NCBI GenBank assembly: GCA_017511045.1
Contig: JAFWLM010000120.1
Location: 62,001-126,000, forward strand
Source of the DNA: Lachnospiraceae bacterium
Lineage (GTDB): Bacteria; Bacillota; Clostridia; Lachnospirales; Lachnospiraceae
DNA length: 64,000 nucleotides
Reading direction: 5' to 3'
Shown here: positions 40,086 through 42,610 of the stretch, one piece after another
Numbering within the stretch: position 1 is the stretch's first letter
How the letters are laid out: each line of letters begins with the position of its first letter
The notes under the pieces: model-generated
What the model was told of the DNA's origin: nothing
Seen by the model: the letters and a program-made list of their open reading frames with translations, nothing else
Databases searched by the model: none
Translations under genes and position numbers: made by a program

Positions 40086-40159
40086 GTCACGCCTCCGTTC
40101 ATTTCGATTTTGTTAAAAAGAAAACAAAACTTGCCTTTCAATTAGGCATGATTTATTCT

Positions 40160-40354
40160 ACCACTATACAGAAAAAACTGTATGATTATTTACAGTGAGG
40201 ATCAACGGAAGGAATCATTCCTGACGGAAAATCCCGGAATGAATAAAATGCCCTGACGCTGAAATGAACAATTGAAGCGAAAGAACCGGCACAAACATTT
40301 GAAACAGGATGTCGTATTATGCCGTGTTCTTCCGTCAGGGGAACACGGCATTTT
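40160..40354 (+). promoter_or_regulatory. Structured leader RNA before hydF with terminator-like hairpin
   Basis: ATGCCGTGTTC (40319-40329) and GAACACGGCAT (40341-40351) form a perfect 11-bp hairpin followed by TTTTG just before the hydF ribosome site. Its loop TTCCGTCAGG (40330-40339) is exactly complementary to CCTGACGGAA (40220-40229), and CGTCAGGG (40333-40340) is exactly complementary to CCCTGACG (40251-40258). TCATTCC (40216-40222) also pairs with GGAATGA (40236-40242), placing the first copy in a loop. The region looks like a switch or kissing-loop leader. I recognise no known riboswitch class. Confidence 0.6.
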
Positions 40355-40369
40355 GATAAGGAGAACAAT

Positions 40370-41557
40370 ATGAGTTTGAATTCAACAGTTTCCGCTGAAA
40401 GACTGCATATCGCGTTTTTTGGATGCAGGAATGCAGGAAAGTCCAGCGTGGTAAATGCAGTGACGAATCAGGAGCTGTCTGTCGTATCAGATGTAAAGGG
40501 AACAACGACGGACCCGGTAACGAAAGCGATGGAGCTTCTGCCGCTTGGTCCTGTTGTGATCATTGATACACCGGGCTTTGATGATGAGGGTATGCTCGGA
40601 GAAAAGAGAGTCCTCCGTACGAAACAGGTCCTGAACCGGACAGATATTGCTGTCCTTGTAATTGATGCTACGATCGGTATGAGCGAGATCGATAAGCAGC
40701 TCATCGCGATCTTTAAAGAGAAGCTAATCCCGTGGATCGTTGTTTATAATAAGAGTGACCTGTTAGACAAAGTTCCGGACGAGAAAGAGAATGTGATCTG
40801 GACCAGTGCGGAACACGGGACCAATATTTATGAACTGAAGGAAATGATCGGCCGCCTTGCACCGGTCGAGGATCCGGAGCACAGACTCTTAAAAGGACTT
40901 GTTGATCCGAATGATGTGATCATCCTGGTCTGTCCGATCGATGAGTCGGCTCCGAAGGGAAGGCTGATCCTTCCGCAGCAGCAGGCGGTCCGCGATGTTC
41001 TGGACATGGGCGGTATCGCTATCGTCTGCCGCGAGTTTGAACTGACTGCAACGCTGAATAGTCTTGCGAAGAAACCGCGTGTTGTCATTACGGACAGCCA
41101 GGCATTTACGGAAGTGAGCCGCGATACACCGGAGTCGATCCCGCTGACCTCCTTCTCGATCCTGATGGCACGTTACAAAGGCTATCTGAAGACCGCGATC
41201 AAAGGAGTGGAAGCGATCGATTCGCTGAAAGACGGGGATGTGATCTTAATGGCAGAAGGCTGTACGCATCACAGACAGTGCTATGACATCGGAACCTACA
41301 AGATTCCGACCTGGCTTAGGAAACATACCGGAAAGCAACTCGCGATCGAGACCTGCTCCGGAAGAGAGTTCCCGGAAGATCTTTCCAAGTATGCGATGGT
41401 CATCCACTGCGGAGGCTGCATGCTCACGGAGCGGGATGTGAAATACCGCATGAAGTGCGCGGAAGACCAGAATGTTCCGTTCCTGAATTACGGCATTATC
41501 ATTGCAAAGATGAAAGGCGCATTAGAACGCAGCATTGCCTGCATCGATCAGGAATAA
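40370..41557 (+). CDS. hydF: [FeFe]-hydrogenase maturation GTPase HydF
   Basis: 395 residues from ATG 40370 with AAGGAG seven bases upstream; the longer open frame begins inside the leader hairpin and is rejected. GTPase motifs: GCRNAGKSS (P-loop), KGTTTDP, DTPGFDD and NKSD. The C-terminal Fe-S site is complete: EGCTHHRQC (Cys-x-His) and HCGGCM. HydF is the scaffold on which the two-iron H-cluster precursor is assembled before transfer to HydA. hydE follows three bases later. hydG is not in the window. Confidence 0.96.
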   Translation: MSLNSTVSAERLHIAFFGCRNAGKSSVVNAVTNQELSVVSDVKGTTTDPVTKAMELLPLGPVVIIDTPGFDDEGMLGEKRVLRTKQVLNRTDIAVLVIDATIGMSEIDKQLIAIFKEKLIPWIVVYNKSDLLDKVPDEKENVIWTSAEHGTNIYELKEMIGRLAPVEDPEHRLLKGLVDPNDVIILVCPIDESAPKGRLILPQQQAVRDVLDMGGIAIVCREFELTATLNSLAKKPRVVITDSQAFTEVSRDTPESIPLTSFSILMARYKGYLKTAIKGVEAIDSLKDGDVILMAEGCTHHRQCYDIGTYKIPTWLRKHTGKQLAIETCSGREFPEDLSKYAMVIHCGGCMLTERDVKYRMKCAEDQNVPFLNYGIIIAKMKGALERSIACIDQE

Positions 41558-41560
41558 GTT

Positions 41561-42610
41561 ATGGATAATCAATATAAAGAACTATGTGAAAAGTTGATCA
41601 AGACCCACAGTCTGTCACTGGGAGAATATGAGACGCTGATCGGACAGCGTGACGAAGAGGCTGCGAAATTCCTTGCCGGAGAGGCTTCGAGAGTCAGCCG
41701 TTCTATCTATGGGAATCAGATCTTTGTCCGCGGACTGATCGAGATCAGCAATATCTGTAAAAACGACTGTCTTTACTGCGGTATCCGCAGAAGCAACAGG
41801 AACTGTGAACGCTACCGCCTTTCTCCGGAGGAGATCTTAGAATGCGCCGATGTCGGATATCAGCTCGGCTATCGGACGATCGTAATGCAGGGCGGAGAAG
41901 ACGGCTTCTTTACGGATGAGGTCGTCTGCGGTCTGATCAAAAAGATCAAGGAAGCACATCCGGATGTCGCGGTCACGCTTTCTTTGGGCGAGCGGAGCAG
42001 AGAGAGCTATCAGGCCATGTTTGATGCTGGCGCTGACCGTTATCTGCTGCGCCATGAAACCGCCGACGAAGAACACTATAAAAAACTGCATCCGGATTTC
42101 ATGAGTTTTCAGAACCGGATGGAGTGCCTTAAGAACTTGAAGGAGATCGGCTATCAGGTCGGCTGCGGCTTTATGGTCGGATCGCCTTACCAGACGAATG
42201 CGCATCTTGCAAAAGATCTGAAATTTATCGAGGAATTCAAACCGGATATGTGCGGGATCGGCCCGTTCATTCCGCATCATGATACGCCGTTTAAAGATGA
42301 GCCGCAGGGGACGGTGGAACTGACCTGCTTTTTATTGAGCGTGATCCGCCTGATCTATCCTCCGGTCCTTCTGCCTGCAACAACAGCCCTCGGAACGATC
42401 GATCCGATGGGAAGAGAAAAAGGAGTTCTTTCCGGCGCCAATGTCATCATGCCGAACCTCTCTCCTGTCGATGTCAGAAAACAGTATGAGCTATATGACA
42501 ATAAGATCTGCACCGGCGAGGAGTCTGCAGAATGCAGAGGCTGCCTCGAAAACCGGATGAGATCGATCGGATATGAGATCTCTCTTACGCGGGGGGATAT
42601 TCAGAAATAA
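41561..42610 (+). CDS. hydE: [FeFe]-hydrogenase maturation radical-SAM enzyme HydE
   Basis: 349 residues, standard length. The radical-SAM cysteines are in NICKNDCLYCGIR (C-x3-C-x2-C); GGEDGFFTDE and CGFMVGSPYQTN are typical of HydE. HydE processes the HydG-derived iron-cysteine complex during assembly of the H-cluster. It starts three bases after hydF and is the last gene of that transcript; a terminator follows. Confidence 0.95.
   Translation: MDNQYKELCEKLIKTHSLSLGEYETLIGQRDEEAAKFLAGEASRVSRSIYGNQIFVRGLIEISNICKNDCLYCGIRRSNRNCERYRLSPEEILECADVGYQLGYRTIVMQGGEDGFFTDEVVCGLIKKIKEAHPDVAVTLSLGERSRESYQAMFDAGADRYLLRHETADEEHYKKLHPDFMSFQNRMECLKNLKEIGYQVGCGFMVGSPYQTNAHLAKDLKFIEEFKPDMCGIGPFIPHHDTPFKDEPQGTVELTCFLLSVIRLIYPPVLLPATTALGTIDPMGREKGVLSGANVIMPNLSPVDVRKQYELYDNKICTGEESAECRGCLENRMRSIGYEISLTRGDIQK

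Follow-up and report, generated by a model that had tools for sequence, protein, structure and literature searches.

Transcription-terminating riboswitches and attenuators place a conserved sensor, a mutually exclusive antiterminator and an intrinsic terminator before a coding region. We analyzed a window of 64,000 nucleotides from a Lachnospiraceae bacterium (contig JAFWLM010000120.1, positions 62,001 to 126,000), in which the leader of two hyd genes resembles these systems in having a candidate sensor, antiterminator and intrinsic terminator. Unlike known riboswitches, the hyd sensor is very small, and it had no match to the 4227 families of Rfam 15 in scans covering 19 of the 45 members of its family. 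Comparison of sequences makes it very probable that the region is the transcription-attenuation leader of a conserved and apparently undescribed RNA class controlling [FeFe]-hydrogenase maturation operons in Clostridia. Devices of this kind are known already; it is the sensor that appears to be new.

A short hairpin interrupted by two small internal loops is a form typical of protein sites, as in the RAT of BglG-type antiterminators. The hyd hairpin is like the RAT hairpins of BglG, SacY and LicT in being short, having two internal loops and standing beside a terminator, but it differs in sequence and loop symmetry, and would compete with an antiterminator rather than being one. By eye, no BglG-type antiterminator or PTS genes were recognised among the neighbours of members. 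The PyrR attenuators (RF00515) would be analogous if the hyd leader answered to a small protein encoded in the same operon; unlike them, it has no family match and serves other genes. A match to RF00515 in one member locus, L170, was at chance level (18.2 bits against a cut-off of 54).

At gathering score, cmscan with Rfam 15 gave no matches in the window or in 20 loci, 13 of them members, and lax scans of the window leader, of all of L012 and L013 and of stretches of L124, L140, L149 and L170 gave matches below cut-off only. The original prediction that the leader fits no known riboswitch class agrees with these scans. In the open-access literature searched, we found no hydrogenase-linked leader RNA, and no mechanism either for setting the level of [FeFe]-hydrogenase maturation or for the 'hydrogenase system regulator' TM1266, a small and widespread putative regulator. 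Excerpts of PMC8632094, PMC6429828 and PMC2864571 likewise held no hydrogenase-linked leader RNA, the passage found there concerning another enzyme.

All window features below are on the + strand. The first gene after the leader (40370..41557, 395 aa) we take from family knowledge to be hydF, and the second (41561..42610, 349 aa) is presumably hydE on the same grounds. HydF had matches in 98 of 98 genomes searched (E ≤ 0.001), many full-length and others to the GTPase part alone; HydE, used as reference, matches genes beside other members of the RNA family. Upstream of the hydF ATG at 40370 and its ribosome-binding site (AAGGAG, 40358..40363) stands a perfect 11-bp hairpin, as originally described, with its 5′ arm ATGCCGTGTTC at 40319-40329 and its 3′ arm GAACACGGCAT at 40341-40351; the loop (TTCCGTCAGGG, 40330-40340) measures 11 nt, not the 10 first given. 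An alternative register lengthens the stem by G-U pairs. The 3′ arm is followed by TTTGAT, and UUUU at 40351-40354 lies immediately 5′ of the ribosome-binding site. The U-tract is short, and the hairpin (40319..40351) is best read as an intrinsic terminator. A possible promoter, TTGCCT-17-TATTCT (40131..40159), scores 8/12 by eye, below the cut-off of our promoter scan, and is also found in one close relative (G011).

Attention had been drawn to this leader by two upstream segments complementary to the hairpin loop, and both complements are exact: CCTGACGGAA at 40220-40229 with the 10 bases TTCCGTCAGG of the loop, and CCCTGACG at 40251-40258 with the 8 bases CGTCAGGG. The 10-mer match is rare as claimed, at odds that our shuffles move from near 1 in 10,000 to between a few in 10,000 and ~1 in 1,000, with no correction for having picked this site out of 64 kb. 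When the 110 nt upstream were shuffled 20,000 times under a first-order Markov model, the loop-complement 10-mer turned up in 5 shuffles, and a match to any 10-mer of a 16-nt loop region in 18. The 2.04-Mb genome holds 16 copies of CCTGACGGAA (11 on one strand, 5 on the other), two of them in this leader, against 6 copies of the reversed control (6 and 0); 10 of the 14 copies outside the leader were inspected by eye and lacked a second element. The leader did not prove to be a repeat or mobile element, as its 161 nt match its own genome strongly only once (itself), ten other matches having E of 0.28 or worse. None of 200 shuffles folds as well as the region 40160-40380 (z −4.4). The case for an RNA comes from conservation in relatives; the complementary pairings by themselves are weak evidence.

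Thirty hydF loci were opened, the window being one, and an obviously related leader was seen in two close relatives, the named MAG Parasporobacterium RGIG5696 (G010, locus L065) and CAMODY010000131.1 (G011, L066). A covariance search model built from five hydF leaders (R1) found no match at E ≤ 0.01 in the 27 other hydF loci (L014-L040). A short motif search added L124 (Lachnospiraceae RUG14788, HydF 71% identical) and L140 (Clostridia RGIG5601, 65%). The part common to these first relatives reads CCCCUGACGCCGAAAC..CUUGAGGCGRAAG, and in L124, L140 and G010 it lies between a TM1266-like gene and hydF. A pattern with both CTGAC segments matched 11 of 397 genomes of the family, ten of them, all besides the window, without the AAA that follows in the core; a longer pattern allowing ≤3 mismatches found G010 and G011 only among 14 genomes of the genus.

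R1 also picked up further members close to hyd genes. Over 392 genomes of the order, it gave 20 non-self matches, and we kept 9 convincing ones; six were dropped as lying in or beside unrelated coding sequence (L151, L153, L154, L155, L160 and L163) and five on their letters alone (L156, L157, L162, L164 and L165). A second model (R2), built from 20 members, matched in 22 of 391 genomes of class Clostridia, one being the window's own. Of the 21 non-self matches 19 adjoin TM1266, hydE, hydF or hydG; the other two (L174 and L185) lie inside unrelated genes and were dropped. One of the 19 kept, L177, is of the same genus as the training member L149. The genome scans scored 15 candidates per genome, so these genome counts are lower bounds. 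The original prediction had staked itself on conservation upstream of other hydF genes, and R2 at E ≤ 0.01 bears this out at 10 of 80 hydF flanks, the other 70 having no match. At 90 TM1266 loci, the best-scoring 30 each of the phylum, class and order samples, the RNA was found at 13 (1, 6 and 6 respectively), 6 of them already members, and was absent from 77 at the same threshold; all 13 share the TM1266 strand and lie 58-146 nt 5′ of the TM1266 match. The RNA is widespread in Clostridia yet far from universal. The final alignment (A5) took in 45 of 46 candidates, L278 (E 0.009) having missed the alignment-stage threshold; the weak matches L265, L272 and L282 were left out.

The conserved core, a hairpin that the original prediction had missed, occupies 40253..40283 of the window (CUGA-CGCU-GA-AAU-loop-AUU-GA-AGCG-AAAG; R1 match 40242-40293, R2 match 51.7 bits), and the predicted fold of the full window leader contains its pairs. 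Its consensus across members is CUGA-CRYY-NAAA-loop-UUGA-RRYG-RAAG. Two invariant C-G/U-A pairs form the base of the hairpin; above them come a GA/RA internal loop, a 4-bp stem that covaries, an NA/GA internal loop and A-U pairs capped by a variable loop. Tandem purine pairs could form in both internal loops. A5 shows no variation at positions C13, U14, A16, A22, A97, A98 and G102, and no C at position 21. The terminal loop carries inserts in 4 of 39 members (L086, L093, L128 and L176), so it is free to vary.

The stem CACC/GGUG of G010, against CGCU/AGCG in the window, was the first sign of covariation. Over the 45 members, in an alignment fitted to the model's own helix and therefore leaning toward it, 98.9% of cells in the counted pairs (CU/AG, CRYY/RRYG and AA/UU) are standard pairs, and two-sided changes number 42 cells, against 11.9 in shuffles and ≤6 in slid controls. 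Compensatory change was seen in 6 of the 8 base pairs, the two outer pairs being invariant; earlier counts from 39 and 20 members agree. The sensor domain is conserved and covarying, and the covariation proposed as a check on the leader is found within this core hairpin. Typical aptamers would also have an outer closing helix P1 overlapping the switching strand; support for one here is weak (z −2.3 by energy, 1.0 by helix score).

Terminators were sought 3′ of 40 members (A4 plus L195) and found for 38, 36 by script and 2 bulged ones by eye; the script count of 36/40 compares with 6.4 expected in shuffles and 11/40 on the opposite strand. The script found none for L140 and L178, of which L140 has by eye a strong hairpin without a U run. 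In 38 of the 40 members we measured the pairing of the flank that runs from the 3′ end of the core with the 5′ arm of the terminator. Own pairs averaged −15.22 kcal/mol and permuted pairs −11.29 (sd 0.46, z −8.5, 0/5000), and with one member per genus the result was z −5.6 (n=25); three control pairings were null (z 0.0 to 0.6). Single members were less distinct: 9/38 beat 95% of swapped pairs and 17/38 beat 90%, and for L124, L128 (from the named draft genome of the isolate Lachnospiraceae bacterium NK4A144), L152 and L176 the pairing was no better than the swapped mean. In the window, the antiterminator 5′ strand (GCGAAAGAACCGGCA, 40277..40291) overlaps the 3′ end of the core, and its predicted pairing with its own terminator 5′ arm, at −19.1 kcal/mol, was equalled by 10.8% of swapped pairs. 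An alternative pairing that would exclude the terminator is thus predicted, more clearly for the group than for single members.

In 33/38 members the antiterminator pairing takes in two or more nt of the conserved RRYG/RAAG, so sensor hairpin and antiterminator would compete. Comparison among members brings out the hairpin, the terminator and the match between flank and terminator arm. We infer that hairpin and terminator work together as a switch, and that the signal, when sensed, would turn the genes off, a direction read from the overlap alone. As long as the sensor hairpin stays closed, RAAG at its end would not be free and the antiterminator would be blocked; the terminator would then fold and transcription stop 5′ of hydF. 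Were the hairpin to open, the flank could capture the terminator 5′ arm and transcription would continue. Promoter-like sites (≥9/12) lie ≤70 nt upstream in 9/19 members that stand before TM1266, fdhD or hydG (3.0 expected) and in 7 of 21 other members (1.4 expected), and some transcripts may therefore begin near the sensor.

Two arrangements recur around the RNA, TM1266-RNA-hydF/E/G and RNA-TM1266-hydE/G. In G406 the RNA heads a run of fdhD, genes for a FecCD permease and (by eye) an ATPase, and NifH- and nitrogenase-component-1-like genes, followed by a periplasmic binding protein, TM1266, hydE and hydF; in G863 the genes behind it are TM1266 and those of a FecCD permease and of an ATPase that carries a TM1266-like domain. 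From these gene sets the regulon seems to be one of cofactor assembly and metal transport around [FeFe] hydrogenase. We lean, by a little, toward seeing in these members the first of a new RNA class whose signal is the state of H-cluster or metal-cofactor assembly, read either as a tiny riboswitch or via TM1266. If so, the RNA would act on hydE/F/G operons, on an fdhD operon and on FecCD-type transporter and nitrogenase-like genes linked to TM1266; in the Clostridia of rumen and gut it would tie hydrogen production to metal or cofactor supply, and having a defined RNA sensor whose terminator switch can be tested would offer a direct route to the signal. As to what holds the sensor hairpin together, we give a direct ligand and the TM1266 protein about the same odds.

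As a riboswitch, the hairpin would bind in its internal loops a metabolite or metal of H-cluster assembly or metal supply, candidates being iron, a [2Fe] precursor, molybdate or tungstate, and SAM-related compounds. We rate this as quite possible, if somewhat short of even. The platform is switch-like, A16, A22 and A97 are invariant in 45/45 members while lying outside the counted pairs, and one RNA-bearing genome (G740, 97% complete) has no TM1266 match. The core is small for an aptamer, however, at ~30 nt, with both of its internal loops symmetric and little support for an outer helix; no terminator was found for the member in G740, and no Rfam riboswitch class reached cut-off or a convincing lax score. 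A hint at ligand sensing comes from the G863 operon, where an RNA-led ABC transporter ATPase gene (L228, 3766-4821) encodes a C-terminal TM1266-like domain (Pfam PF21699), which suggests that this domain senses the transported metal or complex.

Alternatively, the hairpin could be the site of a regulatory protein, most simply TM1266 acting on its own operon, an attenuator of a kind that we hold to be a real, if tentative, possibility. TM1266 is encoded in 29/31 RNA-bearing genomes, against 92/148 in the class sample, 65/146 in the order and 98/199 in the phylum, and is a near neighbour of 18/19 kept class matches. The hairpin also has the shape of protein sites such as RAT. Adjacency is expected in any case, however, since TM1266 sits with hyd genes, and most TM1266 loci (77/90) lack the RNA at E ≤ 0.01; the two RNA-bearing genomes with no TM1266 match are that of the window (G000, 81% complete) and G740, and nothing in the literature searched points to RNA binding by TM1266. 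If sensing does run through TM1266, the family would gain a mechanism. The solved structure 2nzc, labelled hypothetical protein, is that of a relative of the TM1266-like protein. We also noted TM1266 beside NifH- and nitrogenase-component-1-like genes in L227 (G406, C6 30000-44500) and, by eye, in L229 (G011).

The original prediction made the hairpin loop itself the receptor of a kissing loop, or of a three-way competition with the two upstream copies. Its placing of a cis RNA before H-cluster maturation genes is upheld, but the hairpin reads as a terminator, and we now think a loop switch very unlikely. It would explain the exact 10- and 8-base complementarity in the window. The first copy (40220..40229) is lineage-specific: among the 30 hydF upstream regions it has counterparts in G010 and G011 only, none was seen in the parts of the wider RNA family that were read, and by eye its match to the loop falls from 10 bp in the window to 7 in G011 and 4 Watson-Crick pairs in G010. 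The second copy fares better, as it overlaps the conserved core and could plausibly pair with the terminator loop. Across 38 members the 5′ flank pairs more strongly with the loop and 3′ arm of its own terminator than with permuted partners (z −2.8, 17/5000; 0/5000 for narrower segments), a weak group signal against the z −8.5 of the antiterminator, and only 4/38 members beat 95% of swapped pairs. When the terminator 3′ arm is withheld, the window leader is predicted to fold with CCCUGAC:GUCAGGG, the antiterminator and part of the sensor hairpin (−32.4 kcal/mol, against −36.8 for the terminated fold), the terminator loop (GUCAGGG) taking as partner the 5′ flank plus CUGACG at 40250..40258, which includes the second copy. 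That pairing plausibly belongs to the antiterminated fold of the attenuation leader. An extra CCTGACRGRARATCC segment 5′ of the core (40220-40245; counterparts in L012 and L066), seen only in the window's genome and in two of its close relatives, looks like the beginning of the core.

An ordinary constitutive terminator between operons, with the hairpin conserved for some other reason such as mRNA processing, would suit the several members that sit between TM1266 and hyd genes, but it is scarcely probable, given that flank and terminator arm match better than permuted pairs, that other members precede all hyd genes of their locus, some behind promoter-like sites, and that a full stop would silence hydE/F/G.

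Two further observations concern HydF outside this group. Rumen MAGs of Atopobiaceae and Coriobacteriaceae (L067-L081, L083 and L084) encode a HydF 62-71% identical to the clostridial HydF studied here, which may reflect horizontal transfer. In seven of these loci (L068, L069, L076, L077, L079, L080 and L081) a doubled stretch, TCCGACCGAGAGG..TCCGACCGAGAGGAGC, lies directly 5′ of the hydF start; the hosts of this type are again rumen Atopobiaceae and Coriobacteriaceae MAGs.
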